From Bryobacterales bacterium F-183 (lineage in GTDB: Bacteria > Acidobacteriota > Terriglobia > Bryobacterales > Bryobacteraceae): a stretch of 64,000 nucleotides of DNA. A program made the position numbers and the translations under genes. The notes beneath the pieces are model-generated. The model saw only the letters and a program-made list of their open reading frames with translations. It was not told where the DNA came from and did no database searches. Shown in pieces: positions 3,188 to 49,703 of the stretch. Location: assembly GCA_016865505.2 (NCBI GenBank), contig AP025252.1:1302001-1366000 (forward strand), read 5' to 3'. Each line of letters starts with the position of its first letter. Within the stretch, counting starts at the first letter, position 1.

Positions 3188-3790
3188 ATGCCTGCCGCCG
3201 TACAAAACATTCGCAACATCCCGCTGTATCAGCAAGCCTACGCCGCCTTCCGGCAAATGTTCGCACGAGGCGACCTTCGCCTCCAGACCCTGCCCACCAT
3301 TTTCAAGATGACGTTTCACGAGGATGACGCGCAGGAAATCCACCGCTTCACAGGACCTCGCCTCGCCAGCGGCATCGCAAGCCAGGCTACCGCCAAAGAC
3401 GGTGGCTACTACGGGGCCTTGACCCTGAACGGCCAACTCGCCCCGCGTGGCGGCGTCCCATTGCAAAAGAATGTGTACCGTTTTCGGAGGGAAATCGCCT
3501 TTTGCGACATCACCTCCACCCAGAACCGCTTCGCGCTCGACACCGTGTGCCAGCACTTAGCCGGCAAGGGCGTCGTGGAAGCCATTCTGGACCCGCAGGA
3601 CCACACCTGGTCCCGCGCCTTCCATGATGCCTTGGTGGATTCCCCCGAATCCGCGCACGTGGAAGCAATCGTCTGGCAACAGCCGCATCAGCCGCTGCAG
3701 ATCGTAATCCTCTGCGCCCAGCCCTACACTACTGCCGCCGCTACAGGTTTTCCAGCCGGTTCGCCGCATCTCCAAACGAATCCAGCTTGA
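3188..3790 (+). CDS. RES-like paralogue, copy 2 (shorter, degenerate)
   Basis: The 200-residue product aligns along its length with the protein at 1725 (NIPLYQQAY, HRFTGPR, GGYYGALTLNG, LDPQDHTWSRAFHDALVD). An AGGAG ribosome binding site lies about 9 bases before the ATG. Compared with copy 1 it lacks the Glu after the GALTLN strand (APRGGV replaces VTEGIKY) and the WESA serine (VWQQP here), and about 80 residues are missing. If copy 1 is an active RES enzyme, this one is probably inactive or has another role such as inhibition. Its last 50 bases overlap the 3' end of the convergent DUF1552 gene, so the extreme C-terminus may have been acquired by read-in. Confidence 0.55.
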   Translation: MPAAVQNIRNIPLYQQAYAAFRQMFARGDLRLQTLPTIFKMTFHEDDAQEIHRFTGPRLASGIASQATAKDGGYYGALTLNGQLAPRGGVPLQKNVYRFRREIAFCDITSTQNRFALDTVCQHLAGKGVVEAILDPQDHTWSRAFHDALVDSPESAHVEAIVWQQPHQPLQIVILCAQPYTTAAATGFPAGSPHLQTNPA

Positions 3791-8113: not shown

Positions 8114-8152
8114 TCTACCCGAGATCTTATCGAATCTTCATAGGAAATGGTG

Positions 8153-10274: not shown

Positions 10275-12000
10275 GTCCGGCTCGTCCTCCTCTAACAATA
10301 TGCCTTTGCGCAGTCTCGGCTGGTTCCGCGGTCGCGAGTACTACAACTTCTCCCGGCGCGCCAACCTCCGGTCCGAAGGCTTTCTGTTCGACAAGTTCGA
10401 AGGCAAGCCCGTCATCGGCATCTGCAATTCCTGGAGCGAGCTCAACAACTGCAACGCCCACCTGCGCCAAGTGGCCGAAGCCGTACGCCGTGGCGTACTC
10501 GCAGCCGGAGGCTTCCCCCTCGAGTTCCCCACGATTTCGTTGGGCGAACAGTACATGAAGCCGACCACCATGCTGTTCCGCAACCTCATGGCGATGGATG
10601 TCGAAGAGTCCATCCGCGCCAACCCGCTGGACGGCGTCGTGCTCCTCTGCGGCTGCGACAAGACCACACCCGCGCAACTCATGGGCGCCGCCTCCGCCGA
10701 CATCCCGGCCATCGTCGTCACCGGTGGACCCACCCTCAGCGGCAACTACAAAAACACTCCGTTCGCCACCGGCACCGACGGCCGCAAGATCTTCGACCTC
10801 TACCGTACCGGCTCCGTCAGCGAAGAGGAACTGCAGGAAATCGAGGGCTGCATGGTGCGTAGCGCCGGGCACTGTACCGTCATGGGGACCGCGTCCACCA
10901 TGGCGTCCATCGCCGAAGCCCTTGGCATGACGTTGCCCGGTGGCGCCGCCATCCCGGCGCCTGATTCCCGCCGACTGCAACTGGCCGAAGCCTCCGGCCG
11001 CCGCATGGTGGAAATGCTGTTGGAAGGCAACGCTCTGCGCCCCACCCAGATCATGACCCGCGAAGCCATCGAGAATGCCATCACCGTCAACATGGCGATT
11101 GGCGGGTCCACCAACGCCGTGATCCACCTGCTCGCCATCGCCGGCCGCCTCGGCCACAACATCACGCTCGACGATTTCGATCGCATCTCCCGCATCACGC
11201 CGTACCTCGCCAACATCCGCCCGTCCGGCGAGTTCCTGATGGAGGATTTCTTCTTCGCCGGCGGCATCCCCGCAGTGATGCGCGAACTCCTGTCAGAACG
11301 TCTGCACGGCAACTGCATCACCATCAACGGCAAGACCATCGCCGAGAACGTCGCCCAAGCGCCCTGCCACAACCGCGCCGTGGTCCGCGAGTACGCGAAC
11401 CCGATCCACCCGGAAGGCGGTACCGTCGTGCTCTACGGCAACCTTGCCCCCAACGGCGCCGTACTCAAACAGACCGCCGCATCGCCCCACCTGCTCCAGC
11501 ACAAAGGCAAAGCCTACGTCTTCAACGGGCACGACGAAATGATCACCGGCGTAGACCGCCTCGACCTGCCCATCGACAAAGACACAGTGTTGGTGATGAA
11601 GAACGCAGGTCCCAAGGGAGCGCCAGGCATGCCCGAATGGGGCCACATTCCGATGCCCAAGGTCCTGCTGAACCAGGGCATCAAGGACATGGTCCGAATC
11701 TCAGACGCCCGCATGAGCGGCACCAGTTTCGGTACGGTAGTCCTGCACATCGCCCCGGAGTCCGCCATCGGAGGCCCGCTCGCCCTGGTGGAAACCGGAG
11801 ACGAGATCGAACTCGACGTCGCCGGCCGCAAGATCAACCTGAACATATCCCAGGAAGAATGGGACCGCCGTGTGAAGGCGTTCCAGCCCGCCAAGCCACA
11901 CTACACGCGAGGCTACGGCAAGCTGTTTTTGGATCACGTCACCCAGGCCAACCAGGGTTGTGACTTTGATTTCCTGATGGCGGAGGTGCCGTCAAAGTAG
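10273..12000 (+). CDS. IlvD/Edd family dehydratase
   Basis: The 575-residue protein has the family's iron-sulfur and metal motifs: GICNSWSELNNCN, LLCGCDKTTPA, GHCTVMGTASTMA, and the C-terminal GPKGAPGMPEWG and SDARMSGTSFGTV. These enzymes remove water from dihydroxy acids (IlvD) or sugar acids (Edd, arabinonate and xylonate dehydratases) using an Fe-S cluster. The CDKTTPA and NSWSELNNCN wording and the absence of other ilv genes make a sugar-acid substrate at least as likely as dihydroxyisovalerate. ATG 10300 is an alternative start and would remove the overlap with the divergent gene. Neither start has a convincing ribosome binding site. Confidence 0.88.
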   Translation: MSGSSSSNNMPLRSLGWFRGREYYNFSRRANLRSEGFLFDKFEGKPVIGICNSWSELNNCNAHLRQVAEAVRRGVLAAGGFPLEFPTISLGEQYMKPTTMLFRNLMAMDVEESIRANPLDGVVLLCGCDKTTPAQLMGAASADIPAIVVTGGPTLSGNYKNTPFATGTDGRKIFDLYRTGSVSEEELQEIEGCMVRSAGHCTVMGTASTMASIAEALGMTLPGGAAIPAPDSRRLQLAEASGRRMVEMLLEGNALRPTQIMTREAIENAITVNMAIGGSTNAVIHLLAIAGRLGHNITLDDFDRISRITPYLANIRPSGEFLMEDFFFAGGIPAVMRELLSERLHGNCITINGKTIAENVAQAPCHNRAVVREYANPIHPEGGTVVLYGNLAPNGAVLKQTAASPHLLQHKGKAYVFNGHDEMITGVDRLDLPIDKDTVLVMKNAGPKGAPGMPEWGHIPMPKVLLNQGIKDMVRISDARMSGTSFGTVVLHIAPESAIGGPLALVETGDEIELDVAGRKINLNISQEEWDRRVKAFQPAKPHYTRGYGKLFLDHVTQANQGCDFDFLMAEVPSK

Positions 12001-12023
12001 CTGCGCAACTGTCTGTACCATAG

Positions 12024-15000
12024 ATGCGCTGCTTCACCGCTCGTCTTCTCCTGTTTGCTATTGGCATCGCCGCCGCCGGCCAGGATTTCGTAGTTCCGTT
12101 CTTCGCCGCCTCCCCGGCGTTCAGTCCGGCACTCGGCAAACTGGTGATTCTGCGATACGAAGAAGAGGAAACCGCCGCGCCGTATCTATACGACCCTGCG
12201 ACGCGCGCGCTGGAGCAAATCCCTGGCATCACGCACGCTAAAGGACTTTCCGTGTCGCCGGATGGGCGGTACGCCGCCGTCTCGACCCGCGATGGAGTGC
12301 GGATCGTCAACCTGATCACACGCGCGATCGAACGCACCATTCCGGTGGAACGTGGCTTTGTCGTGATGGCGAATGAGTGGGTGCATTTTGTGCCCACTGC
12401 GTCTGTCCGAGTCTCAACCGGCGAACGTGTCCCATTTCGCGATTCCTATTTCGGCGAGCCTGTACTGGGGCCAGGCAACCGTTTCCTCTATGCAAACAAC
12501 GGGACGGAAGCGCTTCGCATCAATGTCTCCACAGGCCCGATGACCGGTTCGGTCGAAACTGCTGCCGCACAGAGGCCGCCCTGCTCGGCACCTCCTACCT
12601 TTCCTGCCATTGCCGGAGCCCCGGTTCTGTTCGACTGGTGCGGCAATATGTTCGCCAACGACGCCGAATTGTCCAAGGACCTTCGCTACACCGGAACTCT
12701 CGCCCCTCCTGAAGCATTCTCCGCAGCAGGACCGAACGGGCCCGTTTACGCCGTCCAGAGCAGCCCGCGAACCATCACGCTCTATAGAGGCGCCCCGTTC
12801 CTCGAACCCTACGCCGCATTTGAGGCTGGTCCTGGGTTCTTCGCCTTCAATCGCGAGGCTACGGAGCTGTATGCCGTACGCGGCAACGCCCAGGGCACCA
12901 TCACCATTTCTACAATGTCGTTGACCGCTGAGCCCAACTGCACGGCGGCCTCATTTGGCGACATTCCTTCTCTCCGGGAAACGACTGGTGCGGGCGTGCT
13001 TTCAGCAATCGCCGTACTTGCGCCCACCGAATCCTGCCGCTACACAATTGCTTCCGATGTACCGTGGATCAAGATCGTCGGACCCTCGCTGCTGGCCGGA
13101 AATCAAGGCGTACGCATCCAAATCGAACCCAATACCACCGGCGCATTGCGATCAGGCAGCGTGCGGTTGACCGGCGGCGCCCAATACGTAGTGCAGCAGG
13201 ATCCGCTGGTCCGCCAGCCGCTACAGCCTTTTGGACTACCGGTTGTATCCGCGGTGTTCAACAAGGCGCGAGGTACGATTCTGTTCGCGCCTGGCGATGC
13301 TATCGCCGAACTCCGGGTTTACGATCCAGCATCTGGCGTGGCTTCCGCAATCGCGCTCCCACTGCCTCCCACGGCGGTCGGCGTCACTCCCGACGGACGC
13401 TACGCGGCAGCCGGGCACAACGGTTGGGTCAGCCTCGTCGATCTGGAATCCGGTGACTTGCTGCGCACCTATGAGATGGCGCTTCCCGTGAACCAGGTGC
13501 TCATTCCCGGCAATGGGTATGTCTATGCGTTCTCAGACCAGATCCGGCAAGCCTATGCCATGCATTTGGAAACCGGCGCAACGAGCCCTTTCGAGGGCGG
13601 CCTGGCCGATCCCCCAATGGCGCGAGTCAGCGTCGAACGGCAGTTGCTGTACTGGCGCGGCTTTCGGTTCTCAATCGCCAGCGGAGTGCCGGAACGTCCG
13701 CAAAGAGTGGGTTGTACGAGCGCGGTGATCAGCGAAAATGGCAACCGCCGCTTCGGATGCGGATACATTTACGCGATCCCAAACCCGCTGGTATCGGGCG
13801 ATGAACAGTTGGTTGGCTCGCTTCTGCAAGGTGGCGACGCTCTGGACCATTCCGCCACACAGCACGCTGTCTTGACAGCGGATCAATTCCGAGTGTTTCG
13901 CGTCGTGGATGAAACCAACGGAACCACGTTAGGCCAACTCACGCTTCCGGGCCCCATGGGTCCAGGACAAGTTCTGAACTATGCGTTCTGGAGCCGGGAT
14001 GGCCGGATTTTTGTGCTGGTTCGCGATGTTTTCGATCAAAACAGCTGGTGGGCGGTGGCGGAAGTCCAGTCGCCGGTCTCGTGCAGGTATGCATTCTCTC
14101 AGGAGTCCGTCGATCTACCCGCGGAAGGCGGCGAACGGTCCATCTCGATCGCCACTGGCGAAGGTTGCGCGTGGCGCGTCGAGGCTCCTACCGCGCAGGG
14201 CGCCCCGAGGCTGACAGGACCGAACGCCGAAGGTGGCATAGGACCGGGCGCGGTAACAGTACAGGTTCCGCCAAATCCCCTTGGACAGCCTCGCCGCTTC
14301 ACACTCGCTCTGCGTGGTAACTACAACGTGGGTTTCACCGTACAGCAACCTGCGAATTCCGGCAGAATTGTTCTCGCGCCAGAGGTGCTGGTGGTCGAAC
14401 CGGGCGGCGGCCCGCAAACGGTGAACGTCACGCCCACCAACGCCGCGCTGCAATGGTGGACGGCAGCCCCTTTGGAGGGGGCGTCTTGGGTCAGGGTTGA
14501 CTACAGAATTGCCATATACACAGGTCCCGGTACAGTACAGCTTCAGGTAGAGCCGAATCTTGGTGCGGCCTTGCGCCAAACTGTGATTTCTATCGGCGGA
14601 ACACCGTTAACGGTGCTGCAACGTGGCACGGCGACGCCGCCTTATCCAGGTCCACCGCCAGTCACATACGTTCCCGCTCTGGGAGGTTCTGCTGTCATCC
14701 GCGCGGAGGCATCCCCGCGGGAGGTGCCGGTATCTTCAGCGGAATGGTTGAGCGTCCGCGCCACAGACGCCAGCAATGGTACGTATTCCGTTACTGTATC
14801 GGCCGCAACGAACCCCACATCCAGAATTCGCAGCGCTCTTCTGCAGGTGGGTGCGACGCTGCATACGGTGGTGCAGACGGCGCAGACTGGCGGCCATTTC
14901 TACCCTCTAAAGCCCTGCCGCTTTGCTGATACCCGCGCGATCTTCGGCGCACCCATTGCCGCCAAATCCGAGCGTACGTTCTACCTGCCGGCGGGAACCT

Positions 15001-36800: not shown

Positions 36801-37418
36801 ATGAGCCCGGGAAATGCGGATTCAGACATCACGCTTTTCCTGCGTCGCGTCCGGGCTGGGGATGCCGCTGCGCAAAACCAACTGGCAGACGCGGTCTACG
36901 CACGGATGTGCGCCATGGCTCGCGCGATCATAGGTCCCAAACGCAACGACATCTCATTGCCCGCCACCGCGCTGGCAAACGAAGTTCTGCTGGAGCTCAT
37001 CAAAACCGAAAAGATTGACTGGCAGGATCGCGAACACTTCTTTCGGACCGGGGCGCGCCTGCTCCGCCGCCGGTTGATCGACTACATCCGTGCCAGCCGT
37101 GCCTCCAAACGGCCCCCCAAGCTACAGCAGCTACCGCTCGATCACGCTCTTGTACCAGCGGCGCACACCTTCGACGAAATCCTCTCGGTTCACGAAGGGA
37201 TCGATCGCCTGGCGACGTTTGACCCCATGCTTGCGGACCTGATTGAGCTGGTCTATTTCGGCGGTATTGCAATAACAGACATCGCCGAGATACGAGGCGT
37301 CACCGAAAAGACCATCGACCGCCACTTGCGCTTCGCCAAAAAATGGCTCGCCAAAAATATGACGCAAGGGTGTCCCCCGGCGCTCGCAAAAGCCGCTAGT
37401 ACCTCACATAAGGCATGA
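36801..37418 (+). CDS. ECF-type RNA polymerase sigma factor
   Basis: The 205-residue protein has sigma region 2 (DAVYARMCAMARAI, LANEVLLELI, REHFFRTGARLLRRRLIDYIRASRASKRP) and region 4 (LADLIELVYFGGIAITDIAEIRGVTEKTIDRHLRFAKKWL). It fits the acidobacterial/planctomycete ECF group (PF07638-like) that is commonly encoded beside Ser/Thr kinases. Its stop overlaps the ATG of the kinase (ATGA), so they work as a unit and the kinase may control the sigma factor. A TAGAAT sequence at 36786 could be its -10 box. Confidence 0.9.
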   Translation: MSPGNADSDITLFLRRVRAGDAAAQNQLADAVYARMCAMARAIIGPKRNDISLPATALANEVLLELIKTEKIDWQDREHFFRTGARLLRRRLIDYIRASRASKRPPKLQQLPLDHALVPAAHTFDEILSVHEGIDRLATFDPMLADLIELVYFGGIAITDIAEIRGVTEKTIDRHLRFAKKWLAKNMTQGCPPALAKAASTSHKA

Positions 37419-39973
37419 ACGAGGAAGCCAAGTGGGCGAAGATCAAGGATCTGTACCTACGGATCGGCGATCTTGCGCCTGAGCTTCGAGAACAACACCT
37501 GAGAGAGATCGAAGGCCTGGAACCCGATGTCGCAACGGCGGTACGCGAACTGATCGACGTGAAGACGGCAGATGCGCCTGACATCGGGCAGTCCGTTTGG
37601 AACGCGCAGATGGAGCGTGCGTACTCGTTCGCCATCGGGCAGACGCTGCTGGATCGTTTCGAGATCTGCGAGTTCTTAGGCGCCGGCGGTACCGGCGAAG
37701 TGTACAAAGCATACGACCGGGTGCAGCGCATCAACGTTGCGGTGAAGACGCTGCAGCACGGCATTCTGGGTAGCCGCGCGGCCGCTTCGATGCTGCGCAA
37801 TGAGATCAACACGGCGCGCCAGATTGCGCACCACAACGTGTGCAAGCTGTACGACGTGCACGTCGATCTGGCAGAAGGCCAGAGCGTCCCGTTCTTCACG
37901 ATGGAGTGGATCGACGGGCGTACCCTGGCGGAGGAGTTGCGGATCCAGGGTCCACTGCCGCTGCCGGTGGTGCGCACGTACACAGAGCAGTTGCTGGCAG
38001 GGCTGGAAGCGGCGCATCAAAGCGGGGTCGTGCATCGCGACCTCAAGTCCGTGAATCTGATGCTGACCGGAAATCCGGTACGTTTAGTGATCATGGATTT
38101 CGGTCTGGCCCGGCGTTTGGACCCGGCCACGATGCGCCAGAAGACCGAAACGACGGAGGCTTTCTCAAGCGGCGGCGGTACACCGGCGTACATGGCGCGA
38201 GAGTTGCTGACCGGCGGCAAGGCGACCCCTGCATCGGATCTGCACGCGGTGGGCGTGATTCTGTTTGAGATGTTGAGCTGCCGGCGTCCCTTTGAGGGTG
38301 CTACGCCGACCGAGATTTCGAGCAAGCGCCTGACCCAGGATGCGCCGAGCTTGTTGGAGTACCAGCCCAACGCGGATCGCACATGGGCCTACGCGATTGA
38401 AAAGTGTTTGGAGGCGGAACCCGCCAAGCGCCCGCAAAGTGTGGCGGATTTGCGGGGGATTCTGCACAACGGTCCGCCAATGTTGTGGAACAGGCGAAAG
38501 GTTGTGCTGTCGAGCGTTGCCGCCCTGCTGGCGGCGGGCGGTGCTAGTGCGTACTGCGTCAACCATCTACGGCGTGGTCCGGCAACGGTGGCGATTGCGG
38601 ACCTGGAAGGGCAGAGCAAAGACACAGCGTTTGACAACGAATGCCGTCGCGCACTGGTGGAGGTGTCCTCGCTGCTTGCAAAGCAGGGCATCGCCAGAGC
38701 GTTCTTAACTGGAAAGACGGCGCGCCAGATGCCGGACGGGGGTGGCGCCAGGTTCCTGCTCGCGAGCGCTGTCGCGCAGGGCCGAAACAAGCCCGAACTA
38801 CATGTTCAACTGCGCGACCTCACGTTTGCCATGAGCCGCTGGAGCGGGAGCATTGCCGCAGGTACCACGGTATCCATCGGGCAGATGCTCGCGGGGCAGT
38901 TGGCGCAGCAGTTAAGTGGTTGGTTGAACGCGTCGTGGGCGTGGCAGGACACGATGGGTGGCGGCAATGCGTCCCCCGGGCGTGGACTGGCGCTCGATCA
39001 TTTCATCCGTGCTAAGACGCTGATGGAAGATTCGTCGTCGCGCAATATAGCGGAAGCAGAACGGTACTTGAAACTGTCTGTTCAGGAAGATCCGCAATTT
39101 GCTCTGGCGTGGTCCGCGCTGGCGGATGCCCACTTGGCACAGGCCGGCTATACGACGGGCGACAGCTTGTCGCGCCTCGCGCAAGCGACGGAGGCCTGCA
39201 ATAGGGCGTTGCGTTTGGATCCATCACTGGCTGAGGCGCACTGTTCACTGGCCGCCATCTATCAACACAACTGGAAGTGGGAGCAAGCCCAAGAGCACTA
39301 TGCAGAAGCCATGCGGCTGAAGACGCACTTCCCCCGGGCGCATCGCTGGTACGCGGGTTTTGCGCTTCAGTTCGGCAGGACCCAAGAGACGCTGGATCAC
39401 ATGCGCCTCGCACTGCAGCAGGACCCGCATGAGAAGGCTGCCATTGTCGGCTCCGTGCTGTACCTCTTGTATTGCGGACGCCCGCAGGAAGCCATCGCGC
39501 TGGGAGAGCCGGTCATGGATGGGCGCAACCTCGAAGGTGCGCGATTCAACGTCGGGCAAGCGTACCTGCGGATGGCGCAGTTGAGTTCCGGGGACGATGC
39601 GCGGCGCTGGTATCAGAAGGCGTTGGAACAGGCCGCGATCCTCGAGTCTTTAGAACAGAAGGGCGCCGTTGGGGTGAAGGCACCACTGTCGACCCGGATG
39701 TTCGCCAGTGTGTACGCAGCTCGTAGAGAAACGCATTTGCTCACGCCGTACCTCGAAAAGATAGCCGAAGGTGAGCGGAACAAAGCGTATTCGCCGGCGG
39801 ATCTGGCGCTGCCGAATGCGTTGATCGGAAATCTCGAAACGGCAGTCCTGCTGTTGGAGAGGGCGCGAACCACCAATCCAACCAGCCTGCTGTATATCAA
39901 GGTCAACCCATTTCTCGATAGCCTGCGAAGCCTACCCAGGTTCGTACAGCTCATCGCAGATATGCGGTTGTAG
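37415..39973 (+). CDS. Hanks-type Ser/Thr protein kinase with C-terminal TPR repeats
   Basis: The 852-residue protein has a complete kinase domain at about residues 80-350: GAGGTGEVYKAYD, catalytic Lys in VAVKTL, HRDLKSVN and DFGLARRLD. A membrane helix follows near 365 (VVLSSVAALLAAGGASAYCV), so the kinase faces the cytoplasm and the rest lies outside. The outer part has an enzyme-like or TolB-like N-terminal segment and then TPR repeats (AWSALADAHLAQAGYTTG, AHCSLAAIYQHNWKWEQAQ). It is coupled to the ECF sigma factor and lies 41 bases before the TPHP-repeat gene. Confidence 0.92.
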   Translation: MNEEAKWAKIKDLYLRIGDLAPELREQHLREIEGLEPDVATAVRELIDVKTADAPDIGQSVWNAQMERAYSFAIGQTLLDRFEICEFLGAGGTGEVYKAYDRVQRINVAVKTLQHGILGSRAAASMLRNEINTARQIAHHNVCKLYDVHVDLAEGQSVPFFTMEWIDGRTLAEELRIQGPLPLPVVRTYTEQLLAGLEAAHQSGVVHRDLKSVNLMLTGNPVRLVIMDFGLARRLDPATMRQKTETTEAFSSGGGTPAYMARELLTGGKATPASDLHAVGVILFEMLSCRRPFEGATPTEISSKRLTQDAPSLLEYQPNADRTWAYAIEKCLEAEPAKRPQSVADLRGILHNGPPMLWNRRKVVLSSVAALLAAGGASAYCVNHLRRGPATVAIADLEGQSKDTAFDNECRRALVEVSSLLAKQGIARAFLTGKTARQMPDGGGARFLLASAVAQGRNKPELHVQLRDLTFAMSRWSGSIAAGTTVSIGQMLAGQLAQQLSGWLNASWAWQDTMGGGNASPGRGLALDHFIRAKTLMEDSSSRNIAEAERYLKLSVQEDPQFALAWSALADAHLAQAGYTTGDSLSRLAQATEACNRALRLDPSLAEAHCSLAAIYQHNWKWEQAQEHYAEAMRLKTHFPRAHRWYAGFALQFGRTQETLDHMRLALQQDPHEKAAIVGSVLYLLYCGRPQEAIALGEPVMDGRNLEGARFNVGQAYLRMAQLSSGDDARRWYQKALEQAAILESLEQKGAVGVKAPLSTRMFASVYAARRETHLLTPYLEKIAEGERNKAYSPADLALPNALIGNLETAVLLLERARTTNPTSLLYIKVNPFLDSLRSLPRFVQLIADMRL

Positions 39974-40014: not shown

Positions 40015-40359
40015 ATGCCTAAGAAGGTAAAGCTCGGAAAAGCTGATGTCGTGATCATGACACCGCACCCAGGCAGGGGTGGGGTTGGCAGCGGCACTGG
40101 CAGTGCGATGTATGCGGCAACAGGCGGCGGTGGCAGCAAGAAGAAAAAAGAGACGCCACATCCGTTTAAGCCCGACACGCCACATCCTTTCAAGCCCGAC
40201 ACGCCACATCCGTACAAGGCGGAGATCGGCGCAGGGTCGCTACTGTTCAAGTCGAAAGGCGGCAAGTTGACGGTAGAAGCCAAGGATGTGAAGGACTTCA
40301 AGTTTCAACTGTCGATCGACAAGAACGGGGACATGATCCTGAAGATCGATGACGAGTAA
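40015..40359 (+). CDS. Small TPHP-repeat protein, candidate modification substrate
   Basis: This 114-residue protein has no recognised domain. A Lys-rich start (MPKKVKLGKADVV) is followed by a first TPHP, a glycine-rich segment and KKKK, then three tandem eight-residue units TPHPFKPD, TPHPFKPD, TPHPYKAE. An amphipathic C-terminal part (FKFQLSIDKNGDMILKID) follows. The repeat units differ only at synonymous sites between units 1 and 2, which argues for selection on the peptide. No signal peptide is seen. Its end overlaps the start of the GT41 gene by 11 bases. TP sites beside a kinase, a GT41 enzyme and a phosphatase suggest a modified substrate; that is inference. Confidence 0.65.
   Translation: MPKKVKLGKADVVIMTPHPGRGGVGSGTGSAMYAATGGGGSKKKKETPHPFKPDTPHPFKPDTPHPYKAEIGAGSLLFKSKGGKLTVEAKDVKDFKFQLSIDKNGDMILKIDDE
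40153..40224 (+). repeat. Three tandem 24-base units encoding TPHPFKPD
   Basis: Units start at 40153, 40177 and 40201. Units 1 and 2 differ only at silent positions (CCG/CCT, TTT/TTC). Unit 3 changes Phe to Tyr and the last Pro-Asp to Ala-Glu. Confidence 0.9.
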
Positions 40360-42346
40360 AGTGGAGTCCGCTCGCCTCGCCGCGAGCGGACGTTTCGCGC
40401 AGTCAAGGGCTGCGGCGGACCTGGAACTCGCGTCAGGCAACATAGCTGCGCTACAAACCCTCGGCGTACTCGCGTTGCACGAGGGTCGCGCCGGCGATGC
40501 GGTACAGTTGCTTCGCCGCGCCTGTCGCGAAGGCGGTGCCGAGGTACGTCCATCCTGGTTCCAGAACCTGGCTGCTGTACAAGCCAAGCTTGCGGCGTGG
40601 GACGAGATGCTGCAAACCACGCAGGCGGGACTTTTTCATTTTCCGGATGACGCTGCGCTACTGCGCCAATCGGCCCGCGCGCAGTATGAGCGGCGTGACC
40701 TTGCAGCGGCGGCCGCGCGTTATCAGGACGCTGTGCGATCCGGTGGCGAACTGACCGGACAGGATCTGCTGCGTTGGGCCGAAGCCATCTACGAGGTCGA
40801 AGGTGCTGAGGTCGCGGTGGACAAACTGCAGGACTGGCTGCAGGAGCGGCCTGACTTTGCCGAAGGACATACGCTCCTTGCCGACATCCTAGATGAGCAC
40901 GGGCACGCCACAGACACTGCGAAGCACCGGCAATTGGCTCACGCCTGCAGGCCAGACGACGATGGACTTGCCGAACAACTGGCGTACGCGTTGTGGCAAG
41001 CCGGCGATGCCCAAGGCTTTTATGCGATTGTGGAGTCGCTCATCGCGAAGCAGACAGCTTCGCGGCAACTGCATTCTTTCTATCTGGCCACGCTTTTGCA
41101 CCACGATGGCATGGACGCAGGTGGAATTCGTAACGCGCATGAGCAATGGGCCGCGCGATTTGCGCCGTCCGCCCGCGACAATCTTCCGCTGGATCGCAAC
41201 CCCGGCCGCCGTTTGCGTATCGGCTACCTGGGCATTGAGTTTCACCAGAATCAGTCCTACTACTTTCTGGCTCATCTCCTTCGCTACCGCGATGCCGCAC
41301 AGTACGAGATCTTCATCTACGATCTTGCCGGTGTCTGCGACTATGCGTCGCTCGAATGCGAAGGTCTTGCCGACCATTGGCGCCGGATGCGCCATGCCTC
41401 GGACGACGAGCTTGTAGACACGATCCGCCGCGATCAGCTCGACATCCTTGTCGACACCTCGGGCCATTACTCGAACGGGCGGACCGCGCTGTTCTCAAGG
41501 GGGCTTGCGCCGTTGCAGGTGCGCATTCCGAACTATCCAAGCACCCTCGGGATGTCCTGCTTTGATGCCATCCTGGCCGACCGCTGGGTCTGTCCGGAAG
41601 GCACGGAAAACCAGTACTCCGAACGCAAAGTGCTGCGAGTGGCGGGCGGCTACATGGCCTACAATCCGCGACCGGATGCTCCACCGCCCGGCCCCCTGCC
41701 GATGCTAAGAAACGGCTTCGCCACCTTCGGCATGTTTCAGCGCATTCAAAAGATGACGTCCCCCTGTTGGGATGCCATTGCCGCTGTATTGCGAAGCGCT
41801 CCCACATCCAAGCTTTTGATCCACACCGCTTCGAGCGACCTGATGAACCCCGAATCCTTCGAACGCGAACTGTACGCAAGGGCGTTGGGCGATCGGGGTA
41901 TCGATGCAACGGAACGCCTCGTCTTCGCACCACCCGAGCCAATGCCTGGCCATCTGAGGGCGGTCGCGCAGTGCGATGTAGCGCTCGATACCTTCCCGTA
42001 CAACGGGCAGACCACGACTTGTGAATGCTTGTGGATGGGCGTTCCAGTGGTGTCGTTGCATGGCGACTATCACGTCAGTCGAATTGGCAATTGGGTGCTC
42101 GATCGCGCAGGGTTCGGCGAGTGGTGCGCCAAGGATGTTGACGAGTACGTGCGGGTCGCGACGAGCTTGGTACAGGACGTGACTAAGCTAGCCGCACTCC
42201 GCGAAACGATGCGCGACAAGGTAGCGCGTTCGCTGCTCACCGACGGTCCGCGAATCGCTCAGGATACCGAAGCTTGTTACCGCCAGCTTTGGCAGGATTT
42301 TTGTAATGAACAACAAGGAGAGCATGTTGATGCAGCCGCAAGCTGA
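40349..42346 (+). CDS. TPR-GT41 glycosyltransferase (O-GlcNAc-transferase-like)
   Basis: The 665-residue protein has TPR-like helices over about residues 1-270 (ALQTLGVLALHEGRAGDAVQLL). A GT41 catalytic region follows with RIGYLGIEFHQNQSYYFLAH, LDILVDTSGHYSNGRTALFSRG, PLQVRIPNYPSTLGMSCFDAI, FATFGMFQRIQKMT and DTFPYNGQTTTCECLWMGVPVV. GT41 includes eukaryotic O-GlcNAc transferase and plant SPINDLY. In these, TPRs capture the protein substrate and a UDP- or GDP-sugar is transferred to Ser/Thr. No membrane segment is present. Its overlap with the TPHP-repeat gene makes that protein the obvious candidate target. Confidence 0.88.
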   Translation: MTSKVESARLAASGRFAQSRAAADLELASGNIAALQTLGVLALHEGRAGDAVQLLRRACREGGAEVRPSWFQNLAAVQAKLAAWDEMLQTTQAGLFHFPDDAALLRQSARAQYERRDLAAAAARYQDAVRSGGELTGQDLLRWAEAIYEVEGAEVAVDKLQDWLQERPDFAEGHTLLADILDEHGHATDTAKHRQLAHACRPDDDGLAEQLAYALWQAGDAQGFYAIVESLIAKQTASRQLHSFYLATLLHHDGMDAGGIRNAHEQWAARFAPSARDNLPLDRNPGRRLRIGYLGIEFHQNQSYYFLAHLLRYRDAAQYEIFIYDLAGVCDYASLECEGLADHWRRMRHASDDELVDTIRRDQLDILVDTSGHYSNGRTALFSRGLAPLQVRIPNYPSTLGMSCFDAILADRWVCPEGTENQYSERKVLRVAGGYMAYNPRPDAPPPGPLPMLRNGFATFGMFQRIQKMTSPCWDAIAAVLRSAPTSKLLIHTASSDLMNPESFERELYARALGDRGIDATERLVFAPPEPMPGHLRAVAQCDVALDTFPYNGQTTTCECLWMGVPVVSLHGDYHVSRIGNWVLDRAGFGEWCAKDVDEYVRVATSLVQDVTKLAALRETMRDKVARSLLTDGPRIAQDTEACYRQLWQDFCNEQQGEHVDAAAS

Positions 42347-43289
42347 TCCGCCAATCATTTTCCCTCCCTACGGCGGTATGGACCACACGTTTGGCACGCC
42401 GTCGCAACTGCCCGAGCCAAAGCCTACGTTTCAACCTGCGTCCGCCTGGCCTGTATGGATGGACAAGATCGTAAAGGTTCTGAATGAATGCTTGTGGCCC
42501 TCATGGGACCACGCAAATCGGACTTGGGCAGCAAGTGCCACCAATGGACCCCATATGGCAGCGATCACCCGCGCGGACTTTGAAATCTTTGCTGCGATGG
42601 GCGTGGAACGGGGCCTCGACGAGCGTCCCAAATCCCCAAACGCCGGTGCCGACCTGCCAACCCACCGCGTGCTGTTTCAGATCGAGGATAGCGGCTCCGG
42701 CCATCCATTGTTCAAGCAAATCGGGTCGTACTACGGCCGCTACGATACCACCCTCAAAAAAGAAGTCGCGGACCTGATGCCAAGCAGCCTCATCAAGAAC
42801 GCCGACCGTATCTTTCCCGCCAACGCCCGAATCAAGTTCCTGCTGCAGCGTCCGCGGCCGTATCAAATGTCGCTGCTCATGCCCGGCATTCCGCCGTTCC
42901 CTTATTTGCGTGCGACTACCGCTTTGAGCCCCTCGGCCTGCAGCGGCCATACCTTGTACGGCCTAATCGGCGTCGCAGGCGTGGTGGATGACTGGATCGA
43001 CGAGTGCGTGAAGTTGACGCAGAGCAATCACGAGTGCTTGCAACAGTTCGCCGTGGACATCGGCGACCGGCGTGTCATGGCTGGCGTTCACTATCCAGGT
43101 GACAATCTAAGCTCCTGGATCATTGCTCTCGCCATGTCCGACTACCTGTTTCGCCCGCATGTACGGCATTGGATCCGGGAGGCGATCGAAAGAAGCGCCG
43201 TCTATCAATTGGTCAAGGCCGCTGGTGGACCGTACACGAAGGCCTTGCAAAAGCTCGACGAAATCGCCACCAACGGATTCCCGGTGTGA
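42330..43289 (+). CDS. PAP2-type acid phosphatase-like protein
   Basis: ATG 42330 has AAGGAG 9 bases upstream; ATG 42306 is the alternative. The 319-residue protein carries the three PAP2 motifs: KFLLQRPRPYQ (K-x6-RP), SPSACSGHTLYG and RVMAGVHYPGDN (R-x5-H-x3-D). These form the active site of class A acid phosphatases and vanadium haloperoxidases. No signal peptide or membrane helix is evident, unusual for lipid phosphatases, so a soluble phosphate ester or sugar phosphate is more likely. It overlaps both neighbouring genes. Confidence 0.8.
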   Translation: MQPQADPPIIFPPYGGMDHTFGTPSQLPEPKPTFQPASAWPVWMDKIVKVLNECLWPSWDHANRTWAASATNGPHMAAITRADFEIFAAMGVERGLDERPKSPNAGADLPTHRVLFQIEDSGSGHPLFKQIGSYYGRYDTTLKKEVADLMPSSLIKNADRIFPANARIKFLLQRPRPYQMSLLMPGIPPFPYLRATTALSPSACSGHTLYGLIGVAGVVDDWIDECVKLTQSNHECLQQFAVDIGDRRVMAGVHYPGDNLSSWIIALAMSDYLFRPHVRHWIREAIERSAVYQLVKAAGGPYTKALQKLDEIATNGFPV

Positions 43290-44008
43290 CGTCATTCCCC
43301 ATCCAGATGCTCTGGGTTCGTGGCCAGCTGAGTCCTTTGGAACAGTTGGCCATGCGGTCGTTCCTCGAGCATGGGCACCAAGTCCATGTGTACACCGACG
43401 AAGACCGCCTCGCCGGGTTGCCCGACGGCGCGACCCAGATGAGCGCGAGTGAAGTCCTGCGATGGGATCCAGCGTTCGACAAGCAAGCCACTGGCCACCC
43501 CACGTTCGCGGATCTGTTCCGCTACACGCTCCTGGCGAAAAAGGGCGGCTGGTGGTGCGACTGCGATGTCATCGCATTGCGGCCCTTTCCACGACCAAAG
43601 CACGTTCTGTTTGCATCCGAGCGCCACGGCGACGGTAAAGCCTATCCGATGCCGTCGGTATTGTTCGCGGAGCCTGGCGACCCGGTGATGTGCCACCTTC
43701 GCGATACCGCGCTGAGTCGCGACCCTGCTTCCATCCAATGGTGCGAACTCGGGCCGGACCTGTTGCGGCGCGTCGTAAAGGAGCAGGGCCTGCAGGATCG
43801 CGTGGCGGATGCCGCTGCATTCTGCCCACTGGACATGGCCGACTGGCTCAATGCGATTCTGCCCGGCAAGGCTCCGGAGTTTGGCGTCAACTCGTTCGCC
43901 GTTCACCTGTGGCACGAGATCTGGAAGCGGCATCGCGTACCCAAAGATCAACCTTACCCGCCGAACTGCCTGTTCGAGATACTGAAGCGGCGTTACGGAG
44001 TCCTATAG
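43286..44008 (+). CDS. DXD-type glycosyltransferase (GT32-like)
   Basis: A GTG start at 43286 overlaps the PAP2 stop (GTGTGA) and gives 240 residues. The catalytic core resembles Gly_transf_sug/GT32: FADLFRYTLLAKKGGWWCDCDVIALRPF, with the metal-binding DCD. VHVYTDEDRLAGLPDGA and a late FAVHLWHEIWKR follow the usual order. Such enzymes transfer mannose, glucose or galactose to a prior sugar. The tight coupling suggests it extends or modifies the sugar laid down by the GT41 enzyme, which is inferred. Confidence 0.8.
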   Translation: MTSFPIQMLWVRGQLSPLEQLAMRSFLEHGHQVHVYTDEDRLAGLPDGATQMSASEVLRWDPAFDKQATGHPTFADLFRYTLLAKKGGWWCDCDVIALRPFPRPKHVLFASERHGDGKAYPMPSVLFAEPGDPVMCHLRDTALSRDPASIQWCELGPDLLRRVVKEQGLQDRVADAAAFCPLDMADWLNAILPGKAPEFGVNSFAVHLWHEIWKRHRVPKDQPYPPNCLFEILKRRYGVL

Positions 44009-44038: not shown

Positions 44039-45040
44039 GTGGCCGTACGCCGTCAGACCAACCACGCACATCCCGCTAAAGCCTGGGCGGCTGCCGCTAT
44101 GCTTGCCGCTCTGGTCGGCGGACTCTGCTTTGTCATCCTAAAGGCCCACAATCAGGCCAATCCCGAGGTCGGCGCGGGGGATTTCAAATGGGCGCTGCGT
44201 GCCATGCGGGACCTTCTCGGTGGACGTGACCCCTACGGCTACGCCCCCGGCCCTTATGCGATCCCGTATCCGCTGCCTTCGGCCTTTGCAGCGCTGCCGG
44301 TCGCCTGGATGCCAGATATCGCCGCGGGTTCTGTCTTTTTTGGATTGTCGGTGCTGCTTCTGGCGTACTGCGTCTTCCGCAGCGGCGAAGAGTGGCGCCT
44401 GGCGATGCTGCTGAGCTGGAACTTTGTGTACGCATTGCTGTGGGTTCAGTGGACGCCGTTGCTCTGCTGCCTGTGGTTCCTGCCGCAGGCGATGCCCTTG
44501 CTGTTGATGAAGCCCAACATCGCCATCCCCATCGCGCTGGCGCGATGGCTGCCGCACATTCGAGAGCCTCGGTTCTTGTGGCGATGGTCGTGGGTGCCGT
44601 TGGCGGTGCTCGCCGCGAGCCTGATCTGCAAGCCGGACTGGCCTGCCGTCTGGCTGCACCAGACGTCCACCTATCAGGGCATCAAGCCTCCCATCCTGGT
44701 GCTTCCGTTGGGACCCCTCGTGCTGCTTTCGCTCCTTGCCTGGCCGGACCGCCGCGCATTGTTGATCGTACTCATGGCGTGCATGCCGCAGCGCATGGTG
44801 TACGACCAGTTGCCGCTGCTCCTTGCCGCAGGGTCGCGCGGGCAGATGTGGCTGCTGGTGGCCGCCAGCTGGGTGAACTGCGCCGTGTTTTGGAATACCG
44901 AAGGTGGATGGTCCGCCGTACCGATGGGTTGGCAGAACTTCATCGTGCTCACGCTGTACCTGCCGGCGGTGGCGGTTGTGATCTGGCCCAAGGTCCGCGC
45001 CTGGGCTTCCCCTCCGCACCCGGTTTCCGATATCGTTTGA
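44039..45040 (+). CDS. Multi-span membrane protein, GT87-like (DUF2029)
   Basis: The 333-residue protein has about 8-10 membrane helices (WAAAAMLAALVGGLCFVIL, ALLWVQWTPLLCCLWFL and others). An early loop GDFKWALRAMRDLLGGRDPYGYAP resembles polyprenol-phosphate-mannose-using GT87 enzymes, whose first outer loop carries the catalytic Asp and a GxDPY motif. It is shorter than typical members, so the function is uncertain. It follows the GT32-like gene by 30 bases and may provide a lipid-linked-sugar step. Confidence 0.55.
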   Translation: MAVRRQTNHAHPAKAWAAAAMLAALVGGLCFVILKAHNQANPEVGAGDFKWALRAMRDLLGGRDPYGYAPGPYAIPYPLPSAFAALPVAWMPDIAAGSVFFGLSVLLLAYCVFRSGEEWRLAMLLSWNFVYALLWVQWTPLLCCLWFLPQAMPLLLMKPNIAIPIALARWLPHIREPRFLWRWSWVPLAVLAASLICKPDWPAVWLHQTSTYQGIKPPILVLPLGPLVLLSLLAWPDRRALLIVLMACMPQRMVYDQLPLLLAAGSRGQMWLLVAASWVNCAVFWNTEGGWSAVPMGWQNFIVLTLYLPAVAVVIWPKVRAWASPPHPVSDIV

Positions 45041-46427: not shown

Positions 46428-46823
46428 TTACCACTCGGCGTATGCCGTACCGTCCAGGCTTTTGCCCTCGGACCCGCTACGTACGTCGAAGATCCCCGGC
46501 TCCGTCTGGTTGACGCTCGTCAGCGCGTCCTCCATCACGACCTGCCAGGTATCTGCGCTACCGGTCATCGGATCGATCGGGATCGTACGCAGATACTGCT
46601 CCGTCACCAGATCATTGAGCGACTGCGGAGCCTTCTGCTTGTCGTACGTGTATTCATCAATCACCGTCCGCAAGGTGAAGAGGTTGTTCTTCAGCACCGC
46701 TTCCTTCGCCCGCACCAGCGACTTCTGGTACATCGGCACCGCGATGCCCACGATGATCAGGATGATCGTCATCACGATCATGATCTCGATCAGCGTGTAG
46801 CCCGCCTGACGGCGCGTCATCAT
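46428..46823 (-). CDS. GspG-type pseudopilin 2
   Basis: From ATG 46823 the product has 131 residues and opens with a class III leader, RRQAGYTLIEIMIVMTIILI, cut after Gly by prepilin peptidase. It ends DGTAYAEW, as major pseudopilins of type II secretion do. It is 10 bases after the other pseudopilin gene and is transcribed from the secretin side. The assembly ATPase and inner-membrane genes are not in this window. Confidence 0.85.
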   Translation of the reverse strand: MMTRRQAGYTLIEIMIVMTIILIIVGIAVPMYQKSLVRAKEAVLKNNLFTLRTVIDEYTYDKQKAPQSLNDLVTEQYLRTIPIDPMTGSADTWQVVMEDALTSVNQTEPGIFDVRSGSEGKSLDGTAYAEW

Positions 46824-46833
46824 CTTCGACGAA

Positions 46834-47304
46834 TTACCACTCGGAATACAACGTGCCATCGCGTGCCCTTTCTGTGGATTTGGTAAATACATCAAATACG
46901 TTCTGGCCGCCCCAACTCGTGGACTTCGGATCGTCCTGCCAACTCCGCTTACCCCAGTCCGTACTGTTCGTGAACGGATCCTTCGGAATCCGCCGCAGGA
47001 ACTTCACCTTCTTATCCACCTGTCCGGACTTCTTGACGCCTTCCACCAGCATCTCCAGCGTTTCCGGGTACCCGTCGGTCTCCACCTTCACCGGCCCGAT
47101 CTCGCCGCGATCCACCGCGTCTTTGTAGCTATCGATCGCCCGGCGCATCTCCTGAAGCGCCACCCGCAGGTCCCGCTCCTTATCCCGCCGGACCTTGTAC
47201 CTCGCCAGCGGCACAGACATAGCCGTCAGCATGATGAGGATCGTGAACGCCACGATCAGCTCAATCAAGGTCAGGCCAGCTTGCGATCTCCTCCGCCGGT
47301 GCAT
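46834..47304 (-). CDS. GspG-type pseudopilin 1
   Basis: The 156-residue protein has the prepilin motif SQAGLTLIELIVAFTILIML, a long helix (RRDKERDLRVALQEMRRAIDSY) and the ending DGTLYSEW. It is 5 bases downstream of the secretin and 10 bases upstream of a second GspG. Two GspG-like genes after a secretin suggest a short T2SS or type IV-pilus-like locus. Confidence 0.87.
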   Translation of the reverse strand: MHRRRRSQAGLTLIELIVAFTILIMLTAMSVPLARYKVRRDKERDLRVALQEMRRAIDSYKDAVDRGEIGPVKVETDGYPETLEMLVEGVKKSGQVDKKVKFLRRIPKDPFTNSTDWGKRSWQDDPKSTSWGGQNVFDVFTKSTERARDGTLYSEW

Positions 47305-47309
47305 AATTC

Positions 47310-49703
47310 CTACTGTAGATTCACGCGTACCGGTTGCGGAGGCGCTGCGGCGATGCCCTGCTGCTGCGAATTCTGCAACCCGATCTGCTCGATGATCACC
47401 GTCGAGTTGCCGCGTCCCAGCGCCGTAAAGCGCAGGCTCACGATGCCGCCCGATCCGGAAACGCCCGCAGCACCCGGGTTGCGCGACACCGAAATCGTCG
47501 CCTCGCCCGTGTCATTGCGGATGTCCTTGCTCAGTGTGGTACGCATGCCGTCACGGGTCATCAAATCGCCCTGTTCGGCGTCATTCAGGCGCAATTTTGT
47601 GGGATCAAACTTCACGCGAATCGGCGTGACGGCCAACAAATCCGGCGCGTTCGTCGCCTGTAACGACAAACTGATCGGCGTACCCGGTGCCGCGTTCACC
47701 TCGTTACCAGGAACCCAGGATAAAGTCATCGGTCCGGCAGCAGGCACCGTACCCTGTGGACCCGCAGACACCGCCGACGGCGACACTGCCGGGGGCTTTG
47801 CCGCACCAGGTACCGGAGGCGTCACCGCGGCCGGAGCCGCGACAGCGGGCTCATCCTTCTTCGGCGCATAGATCACCCGGATATTCTGTTCCGTACCCGA
47901 ATAGATCGCACGCATGTTGTCTTCCGAATACCCCGGCGTACGCACAATGCGCGGCACCACCGCGATCAGCAGTTCCTGCTGCGTCTTTTCGACGTTCTCG
48001 CTACCAAACAGACGACCCAGCACCGGCACATTCACGATGCCCGGGACACCGGACACCAGCCGCGAATCCTGCGCATTGGTCAACCCGCCCAGGATGTTGA
48101 CTTCGCCTTCGCGCAGGCGCAGTTCCGTTTCGCTCTTGCGCTGGCCGATGATCGGCTGCGAAATGCCGCCCAAATCCACCCGGTCACGTACCGTCGAGAT
48201 TTCGACAGAGATTTTGAGCGTCACTTCATCCGTACCGTGTACCTGCGGCGTCATGTCCACATTCACGCCGACTTCCGTAAAGTTGAACTGCGTACTCACC
48301 AGCGGACTCACACCCGCGCCCACGCCGCCGATGCCCGGCTGAAAGCTACCCGTCGCGATCGGGATCTTGTCGCCGATGCGCAGCGACACCTTCTGCCCGT
48401 CCGACGCGCGGACCTGTGGCGACTGCAGCACGCGCGTCGAACGATCCGTCAGGATCGCCGACAGCAGCGCGCCCGGCAAGGTGGTGCTGAAGTCCTTCAG
48501 TTGTACCTTGCCCAGGTTCGACAACCGCACATTGGACCCCGTACCGGTATCCGTAGTCGAATCGTCCGAAGGCGCGGCCGGCGACCCCAGCGACGATCGC
48601 GGCGCAAACGTCACGGGCAAACGGATGCCCGACGTACTCCCGCTTTGCAACGTCGCAGCAAGGTCCCGCGTACGGCCGCGGTTGGCTTCCATCACGATGA
48701 CATCCACCACCACTTCGGCCTTCGGCTTGTCCAAATCTTTGATCAGCTTCTCGGCCAGCGCTACCTGATCCACCGTGCCGCGGATGAGAATCGCCTTCTG
48801 CGCGTTGTACGTGTACACACGCCGGATTTCCGTCAGCGACCGGACGGCCACCGAAATTTCCTGAAACTCCTGCACGGACGTCGCGTTCTGCACATAGAAC
48901 ACCTTCACCACGTCATCGTCATAGTCGCGACGCTTGGTGACGTTGTCTTCCGCGACAAACACCGTATTCTCGGTGAGCGGCTTCCAAAACGTTTTGGTCA
49001 GCACGGCCAGATAATCGAGAGCGCTTTCAATGGACGCGTTGTTCAGCTCGACGTTGTAGTTCTGCCGGCCGCTCGTATTCTGATACTGCGGGTCAAACAC
49101 CACGTTCAGGCCAGCAAGCTTGCCCAGCGTCTCGTACAGCACCCGCGGAGGCTGGCTGTTCATCTTGAGGCTCTGGATCGTGCGGTTGATCGGCTTCAAC
49201 TCCGGCGGCGCGAGCATCGACCCGATTCGCGCTTCCGCTTCCTTTGCCGCGCGCTGTGACAATGTCAGACCGCGGTCGTTCGACCCCTGCGGACCATTCG
49301 CCTTCTCCCGCTCGATCATCTCCTGCGTCTTGTTCCATTCCTGGATCGCGATGGACGACGAAGGATCCTTCTGGATGGCCTTCATGAACTCATCGAGCGC
49401 TTTTTCCAGGTCGCCCTGCAGCCGGATCTTGCGCCCGTCGTCGACATGCTTCTGGCTCGAATAAAAGCGCATGCGCTGGACAAGGATGCGGTAGCCGGCG
49501 TCGCTCGGGTCCGTAATCAGCGCCTGTTCAAAGTACTCCAGCGCGGTGTCAAAATCCCTCTTATCCTCGGCGATCTTGCCTTGCTTGACGAGCTTATCGC
49601 CCTTACGATTGCGCGCCTCAAGCGGCGTTACGGCAAAGGGATACAGTATAAGCAAGCACCCAAGAAGAGCGCAAAATTCCCGCAAGTTGCTGATTCGAAA
49701 CAT
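47310..49703 (-). CDS. Secretin with N-terminal TPRs and C-terminal cohesin-like domain
   Basis: The 797-residue protein has a signal peptide (LLGCLLILYPFAV), TPR-like repeats at 40-130 (RDFDTALEYFEQALITDPS) and N-domains (VFYVQNATSVQEFQEISVAVRS). The secretin beta-domain spans about 350-620, with VVVDVIVMEANRGR, LRIGDKIPIATGSF, VGVNVDMTPQVHG and VPVLGRLFGSENVEKTQQELLIAVVPRIV. After a Pro/Ala linker a cohesin-like fold follows (VNAAPGTPISLSLQAT, IRVKFDPTKLRL, GIVSLRFTALGRGNSTV). It would form the outer-membrane pore for secretion or pilus assembly. It heads an operon with two GspG genes. Confidence 0.88.
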   Translation of the reverse strand: MFRISNLREFCALLGCLLILYPFAVTPLEARNRKGDKLVKQGKIAEDKRDFDTALEYFEQALITDPSDAGYRILVQRMRFYSSQKHVDDGRKIRLQGDLEKALDEFMKAIQKDPSSSIAIQEWNKTQEMIEREKANGPQGSNDRGLTLSQRAAKEAEARIGSMLAPPELKPINRTIQSLKMNSQPPRVLYETLGKLAGLNVVFDPQYQNTSGRQNYNVELNNASIESALDYLAVLTKTFWKPLTENTVFVAEDNVTKRRDYDDDVVKVFYVQNATSVQEFQEISVAVRSLTEIRRVYTYNAQKAILIRGTVDQVALAEKLIKDLDKPKAEVVVDVIVMEANRGRTRDLAATLQSGSTSGIRLPVTFAPRSSLGSPAAPSDDSTTDTGTGSNVRLSNLGKVQLKDFSTTLPGALLSAILTDRSTRVLQSPQVRASDGQKVSLRIGDKIPIATGSFQPGIGGVGAGVSPLVSTQFNFTEVGVNVDMTPQVHGTDEVTLKISVEISTVRDRVDLGGISQPIIGQRKSETELRLREGEVNILGGLTNAQDSRLVSGVPGIVNVPVLGRLFGSENVEKTQQELLIAVVPRIVRTPGYSEDNMRAIYSGTEQNIRVIYAPKKDEPAVAAPAAVTPPVPGAAKPPAVSPSAVSAGPQGTVPAAGPMTLSWVPGNEVNAAPGTPISLSLQATNAPDLLAVTPIRVKFDPTKLRLNDAEQGDLMTRDGMRTTLSKDIRNDTGEATISVSRNPGAAGVSGSGGIVSLRFTALGRGNSTVIIEQIGLQNSQQQGIAAAPPQPVRVNLQ

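Follow-up and report, generated by a model that had tools for sequence, protein, structure and literature searches.

Several described systems share parts with the locus analysed here, which lies in a 64,000-nucleotide stretch (hereafter the window) of the genome of the soil bacterium Bryobacterales bacterium F-183 (contig AP025252.1, positions 1,302,001 to 1,366,000) and in which the gene for a small repeat protein overlaps that for a family 41 glycosyltransferase (GT41) with tetratricopeptide repeats (TPR). According to the passages of PMC7591256 on its architecture, Caulobacter FlmG glycosylates flagellin, which it binds via its TPR domain; like the window GT41 as we read it, it is a soluble cytoplasmic protein whose N-terminal TPR part binds a particular protein substrate and whose transferase domain is C-terminal. 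The substrate of FlmG is flagellin, whereas that of the cassette GT41 would be the adjacent small motif protein, and the cassettes, unlike FlmG, have a gene pair for an extracytoplasmic function (ECF) sigma factor and a kinase and often a PAP2 enzyme. SPINDLY and OGT likewise combine TPR with a GT41 catalytic domain, an essential Lys and a TT donor motif, but the cassette GT41s lack the His found at SPINDLY H495 and OGT H558 and mostly carry an FQRPxK-type motif. As set out in the relevant parts of PMC10507012, the GT41 family holds both Ser/Thr and Asn transferases, and the HMW1C-type N-glycosyltransferases (NGT), which belong to the same CAZy family, show that a GT41 acceptor can shift from Ser/Thr to nitrogen. 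HMW1C-type NGTs have an AAD domain and no TPR, whereas the window GT41 has N-terminal TPR and scores 23 bits against the NGT equivalog NF049992 (cut-off 1000), which places it outside that group. Glycocins resemble the cassette in joining a genome-encoded peptide to a dedicated glycosyltransferase. Glycocin glycosyltransferases are SunS-like GT2 enzymes, whereas the cassette enzyme is a TPR-GT41 and its small protein is not a Cys-rich bacteriocin. The window also resembles PknS-EcfK, an ECF sigma factor with its cognate Hanks-type kinase (PMC13147305), although here the pair is known from gene adjacency and its output genes differ. Among the papers listed in literature searches, none describes the present arrangement in its title or abstract. 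Judged from sequence and gene order, the small protein is, with moderate probability, a dedicated substrate of the GT41, and the PAP2 and sugar enzymes would be optional tailoring enzymes.

The preliminary description of the window had reported overlapping genes for the small protein, the GT41, a PAP2 protein and a DXD glycosyltransferase behind an ECF sigma factor and a kinase, and this layout held when we made our own choices of open reading frames (ORFs) as gene calls. Six plus-strand genes follow one another in the order ECF sigma factor, Ser/Thr kinase, small protein, TPR-GT41, PAP2 and DXD glycosyltransferase (Table 1), and every junction overlaps except that between kinase and small protein, where the gap is 41 nt. 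The small ORF and the GT41 gene overlap by 11 nt, the PAP2 and GT41 genes by at most 41 nt (in-frame ATGs further on, at 42324 and 42330, could also serve as the PAP2 start), and the DXD enzyme starts with the GTG at 43286, in a GTGA overlap with the PAP2 stop. Searching 299 genomes of the class with the small-protein sequence (E ≤ 0.001) gave one match besides itself, a chance-like ORF (L005, E 7.5e-4); the best other match within its own genome (L002, E 0.16) was chance-like as well, and a search in phages gave no match. No Pfam or NCBIfam family matched the window protein and no Pfam family its counterparts in loci L092 and L097, nor did these scans find a known precursor family or leader domain of ribosomally synthesized and post-translationally modified peptides (RiPPs). 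Sequence search alone would suggest an orphan, a view that was reversed by a gene-order search via PAP2.

Relatives of the PAP2 protein were found in 11 of 237 searched genomes of the same Acidobacteriota family, own genome included; the assemblies are mostly metagenome-assembled genomes (MAGs), and the class and phylum were sampled. At the ten other PAP2 loci, a GT41 gene adjoins PAP2 in eight and the sigma factor and kinase genes are present in nine, and the gap before the GT41 holds a small ORF in all eight PAP2 and GT41 loci. The GT41 and PAP2 genes lie on the same strand and overlap, taken as longest ORFs, in eight of nine loci including the window, and are convergent in L020. A GT41 profile built from the nine PAP2 cassettes, which rank first by construction, matched 72 of the 237 genomes (E ≤ 1e-60), and eleven further GT41 loci (L088 to L098) were examined over a wide neighbourhood. 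Seven of these have kinase, small ORF and GT41 without PAP2 (L088, L089 to L092, L096 and L097, a contig end leaving just the later part of the kinase in L089 and L090), while the GT41 loci L093, L094, L095 and L098 have no kinase. In all 16 examined loci whose GT41 adjoins PAP2 or a kinase, namely the window and eight others with PAP2 and seven without, the GT41 gene is immediately preceded by a small ORF. Small motif proteins beside a TPR-GT41 thus do recur in other genomes, whereas their absence near GT41 genes elsewhere would have counted against the preliminary description. At L025, the small ORF is present with no kinase in the preceding 994 bases, where the contig begins (the ORF upstream is divergent and is also found in L023), and this indicates that the small ORF goes with the GT41. 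Because one type of GT41 pairs with the small protein, because L025 does so without a kinase and because the small ORF is absent where the GT41 is absent, a substrate relation is the best reading. The preliminary description was also right about sugar enzymes as neighbours, which adjoin PAP2 in four of the nine PAP2 cassettes: GT32-like in three (the window, L018 and L026, the latter two with Pfam scores below cut-off) and a polysaccharide pyruvyl transferase in one (L022). The window DXD enzyme, scanned as a longer 279-aa ORF, matched PF04488 with E 4.3e-5 and 24.6 bits (cut-off 23). Across the phylum, the GT41 profile matched 12 of 396 genomes at E ≤ 1e-120; six of the eleven besides the window genome supplied seven loci for examination over a wide neighbourhood, and none of these showed such a cassette. 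A PAP2-profile search of 399 class genomes gave nine matches, all in the same family, of which one (G310, L099) is weak and in a different setting.

The window GT41 matches Glyco_transf_41 with E 1.3e-30 (106.6 bits, cut-off 25), and its best PDB match is SPINDLY (456 bits). Its TPR part, as previously noted, is real: weak by Pfam (E 0.011), it is clear by profile alignment over the TPR of SPINDLY and OGT. In an alignment of 27 GT41s, the His at SPINDLY H495, a position taken from the printed HMMER alignment, is absent from all 16 cassette enzymes and present in eight of the 11 others, the exceptions being L093, L094 and L130. The motif F-G/C-x-F/L-Q-R/K-x-x-K occurs in 15 of the 16 (not in L097) and also in L093 and L094. 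Fifteen of 16 cassette enzymes keep the Lys equivalent to SPINDLY K665 (window K468), which is His in L097 and whose counterpart in OGT we take to be K842. Nine non-cassette GT41s lacking the motif form one clade in the tree (support 100/100), those of L093 and L094 are placed among the cassette enzymes, and the placement of L097 is weakly supported. Among eleven lower-ranked family loci (L074 and L078 to L087, some being the same genes again), the His was seen in ten and one was unreadable; the cassette motif is present in the GT41 of L077, which a contig end truncates. By alignment and tree, then, the cassette GT41s are a divergent type with a common active-site departure. We rejected the idea that the lost His is OGT H498, which PMC9715652 equates, in its comparison of the two enzymes, with SPINDLY L439, since our alignment shows H495 to be lost. 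The same parts of PMC9715652 give OGT H558 as the counterpart of SPINDLY H495, report H495A and H495F as dead, perhaps for structural reasons, and describe K665 as essential, with a donor phosphate as the likely base. Ordinary-type GT41s lie within 2 kb of flagellin in two family genomes (L095 and L098) and of FliD in L132; together with the binding of flagellin by FlmG, those near flagellin count in favour of the substrate reading.

The window small protein contains four TPHP motifs, three of them within 24-nt tandem units whose differences are mainly silent, as had been reported: units 1 and 2 are identical but for two silent sites, and unit 3 has Y for F, A for P and E for D. In the whole window, TRF detected only this array and one other, a short 12/22-nt tandem array at 1522-1583, distant from the cassette. 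Many cassette small proteins repeat a His-centred motif (TPH, IHG, THHG, GHER, TSHD, AHR or KHT), from one to six times. The nine small proteins of the PAP2 cassettes contain the pattern [TS]xH 19 times (shuffle mean 4.4; 0 of 5000 shuffles reached 19), and all 16 together contain it 22 times (mean 7.3; 0 of 2000 reached 22). Because this pattern had been picked after the proteins had been seen, we ran a second test on the most repeated 3-mer of each protein, excluding Lys/Ala-only 3-mers. In six proteins the top 3-mer occurred at least three times, and in five of them it bears His (TPH/PHP, IHG, GHE/HER, TSH/SHD, KHT), the other being LEL in L091; the share of gapped triplets with His in these six was 0.08-0.17. 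Thr or Ser usually lies within two residues of the motif His; the exceptions are two of the five units in L020 and six of the eight AHR units in L089 to L092, the latter having Gly instead. The small proteins of L089 to L092 are built from two copies of a unit of about 65 aa, each copy bearing SAHR or GAHR, that of L088 resembles a single such unit with GPHD, and the first His is invariant across these five; L026 has a gapped F-x-T-H pair and L097 six KHT motifs. The shared motif is therefore not TPHP, given the differing His-centred motifs elsewhere, and His is more constant in it than Thr. On the question put in the preliminary description, the repeat number does vary beside GT41 genes, but the TPHP motif does not hold. 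Likewise, of its proposal that the GT41 glycosylates the TPHP Thr, the recurrent pairing stands, whereas we rejected this Thr as the general acceptor, there being no fixed Ser/Thr in the AHR group. As a further observation, Lys/Ala-rich, histone H1-like stretches, seen by eye, are attached to the small proteins of L020, L021, L025 and L097.

Seven of eight C-terminal tails tested outscored all 251 control ORFs in a leave-one-out comparison, using an 18-residue block selected and aligned by eye. The small genes of L089 to L092 gave ratios of nonsynonymous to synonymous substitution rates (dN/dS) of 0.25-0.56, which are rough, dS exceeding 1 in four of six pairs and being just below 1 in another. 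The structure model of the window protein is poor (predicted template modelling score, pTM, 0.28); residues 1-75, among them the repeats, are modelled with low confidence, and residues 76-113 form four strands (block means about 61-82).

A mechanism can be proposed on this basis. The partner kinase would switch on the ECF sigma factor, and the cassette expressed under the control of this factor would yield a dedicated small protein together with the enzyme that modifies it. The GT41 would bind this protein with its TPR part (in the window, by way of the folded beta tail of the protein) and, with its catalytic part, attach a sugar to or next to every His-centred turn in the repeats. In cassettes that have a GT32-like or pyruvyl-transfer enzyme, that enzyme would elaborate the sugar, and the PAP2 enzyme would perform one further step, whatever use the product may have. 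We regard as improbable the more specific idea that the repeat His is itself glycosylated, as an imidazole N-glycoside, or that a substrate His supplies the lost active-site group and licenses a neighbouring residue; enzyme and substrate would then have co-evolved, since the His is missing from the GT41 and recurrent in the substrate.

Several observations weigh against a dedicated GT41 substrate. Gene adjacency may reflect shared regulation only, and two of the four neighbouring sugar enzymes (L026 and L022) are on the opposite strand. The small proteins form groups that cannot be aligned with one another; no repeated His-bearing 3-mer was found in those of L021, L022, L026, L088 and L096; the tail test is failed by L021, and a tail of this kind is missing from L020 and from the seven PAP2-less proteins. 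The cassette-type GT41s of L093 and L094 are not accompanied by a comparable small ORF (in L094 there is a 99-aa ORF containing a single [TSG]xH), and the ordinary GT41 of L134 is preceded by a 42-aa ORF with two [TSG]xH. L134 is the one case with two among eleven non-cassette GT41s, L094, L098 and L129 having one, by a control filter that fails to detect the L091 and L092 small genes, their ORFs extending further upstream. The cassette GT41 may also be a weak or changed enzyme, since H495 mutants of SPINDLY are dead, and the passage of PMC4683255 on bacterial TtOGT reports no detectable activity in vitro. If the substrate reading is correct, the cassettes are a system for protein glycosylation in which enzyme and dedicated small substrate are encoded side by side and the substrate varies naturally in repeat number and motif. 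They would include a GT41 lacking a residue needed by its plant relative SPINDLY, provide ready-made enzyme-substrate pairs for asking how GT41 selects its acceptor, and offer an entry into the poorly known specialised chemistry of Acidobacteriota.

The window PAP2 protein scores just under the PF01569 cut-off (E 1.8e-5, 24.9 against 27.2 bits), and its relative in L037 reaches 38.5 bits. Its model (mean predicted local distance difference test, pLDDT, 83.7; pTM 0.87) fits class A acid phosphatases (best Z 12.1) and vanadium haloperoxidases (best Z 12.4) alike, at Z 10-12, although in helical proteins Z below about 13 can reflect a common arrangement and no Foldseek E below 0.001 was obtained for this model. 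Residues K177, R184, H215, R256, H262 and D266 are invariant in 11 of 11 proteins, and the K-R, SGH and R-H-D sets to which they correspond are presumably the canonical PAP2 active-site motifs; since all six are invariant, we accept the fold. The earlier label of PAP2 phosphatase thus holds for the fold, whereas the phosphatase part is not supported, haloperoxidases fitting equally; the predicted fold suits either enzyme, and the fold match does not distinguish the reaction. This equal fit and the invariant residues would suit a different scheme, in which the small protein is a RiPP-like precursor with PAP2, as haloperoxidase or phosphatase, as its chief modifier, acting on His or aromatic residues, and glycosylation is secondary or serves self-protection. 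A Gammaproteobacterial MAG (L037) lends this scheme some colour, for the longest ORF of its PAP2 relative overlaps an Os1348/NHLP-like precursor ORF (NF038399 E 8.5e-9, 35.4 bits, cut-off 40), and the gene after it encodes a RiPP radical SAM C-methyltransferase (TIGR03975 E 7.9e-201). Seven of the 16 small-ORF/GT41 loci lack PAP2, however, so that we rejected PAP2 as the cassette core, and in L024 and L027 the kinase is followed directly by PAP2 with neither a GT41 nor a motif ORF; we therefore consider a RiPP-like precursor unlikely. L037 itself (6805-12831: winged-helix/kinase-like regulator, precursor ORF ending GICHIRSHPPGAKR, PAP2, radical SAM enzyme) is apparently a separate RiPP cluster using the same PAP2 family.

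It is similarly doubtful that the small protein binds metal or nucleic acid through its His residues while the GT41 modifies something else. Each protein has two to six His and four of them bear the Lys/Ala-rich stretches mentioned above, as such a binding protein might, but the specialised GT41 type is paired with it in all 16 cassette loci, and motif spacing and neighbours vary between loci. Least probable of all is that the kinase or sigma factor, and not the GT41, has the small protein as its regulatory partner or its substrate. In favour of this, the small ORF comes straight after the kinase gene in 15 of the 16 loci, and phosphorylation of the Thr residues it encodes is conceivable. Against it, L025 has the small ORF without an adjacent kinase, loci in which a kinase is followed by PAP2 without a GT41 do not have it, a fixed Ser/Thr is missing from the AHR group, and none of the seven other kinases of the genome (E ≤ 1e-30) has a comparable small gene next to it (the nearest case being a 169-aa ORF with two [TSG]xH, respiratory-chain subunit-like by eye). 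For the kinase of the GT41 cassette, the idea that it acts on the TPHP sites found no support: its gene overlaps that of the sigma factor (37415 versus 37418), and in the characterised pair PknS-EcfK the kinase phosphorylates the sigma factor (PMC13147305). Because PknS-EcfK works in this way, the sigma factor is more likely to be the kinase target than are the repeats.

Table 1. Features of the cassette, with positions in the window.
Feature	Positions	Strand	Basis
ECF sigma factor, regulatory module	36801-37418	+	Sigma70_ECF, TIGR02999; kinase-adjacent in 9/10 other PAP2 loci
Ser/Thr kinase, C-terminal TPR; probable sigma factor activator	37415-39973	+	Pfam/NCBIfam matches; PknS-EcfK precedent (PMC13147305)
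Small motif protein, 114 aa; proposed GT41 substrate	40015-40359	+	ORF, motif counts, tail test
First TPHP motif	40060-40071	+	Sequence
Three 24-nt tandem units (TPHPFKPD, TPHPFKPD, TPHPYKAE)	40153-40224	+	TRF; low model confidence, likely disordered
C-terminal four-strand beta tail	40240-40353	+	Model residues 76-113; last part alike in 6 other small proteins (leave-one-out profile)
TPR-GT41 with FQR-type motif, lacking the SPINDLY H495/OGT H558 His, keeping K468	40349-42346	+	Pfam, profile, alignment
PAP2/vanadium haloperoxidase-fold enzyme, six canonical residues intact	42306-43289	+	Pfam, alignment, model
DXD glycosyltransferase, GT32-like (Gly_transf_sug); optional tailoring enzyme	43286-44008	+	Pfam, neighbourhood

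Other genes were noted around the cassettes and around more remote PAP2 relatives. In L021, a 284-aa protein without a Pfam match directly follows PAP2 (3423-4274) and may be another tailoring enzyme. One viral and four plasmid PAP2 relatives are distant and lie in different contexts. On the Alphaproteobacterial plasmids (L045 to L048), the distant relative lies near an annotated vanadium-dependent haloperoxidase and hypothetical genes, in the same order in all four. In Burkholderiales, the PAP2 relative follows a regulator-like protein with cyclase and partly TPR similarity (L038 to L040), and in a MAG of that order (L043:631-2672) a 141-aa ORF with no Pfam match, a 2-oxoglutarate-Fe(II) oxygenase (PF13640 E 6.8e-13) and the PAP2 relative stand in a row. 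Searches among the relatives of two Proteobacterial PAP2 carriers gave 1 of 220 and 1 of 150 genomes, each just the query genome. The relative in Rhizobium altiplani (L041:9422-15786) is split over two ORFs beside a GoxA/LodA-like gene (cysteine tryptophylquinone oxidase), with a probable flavin adenine dinucleotide partner nearby, judged by eye. Beyond the sigma/kinase end of PAP2-less cassettes there is a DyP-type peroxidase-like gene (L088:11758-13098 and L091:900-2210, both by Pfam match, and L092:11698-12933, by eye). In the window itself, the cassette is followed by a 333-aa probable membrane protein (44039-45040) without a Pfam or NCBIfam match and, outside the cassette on the minus strand (46428-49703), two pseudopilin-like ORFs and a secretin-like ORF were recognised by eye.

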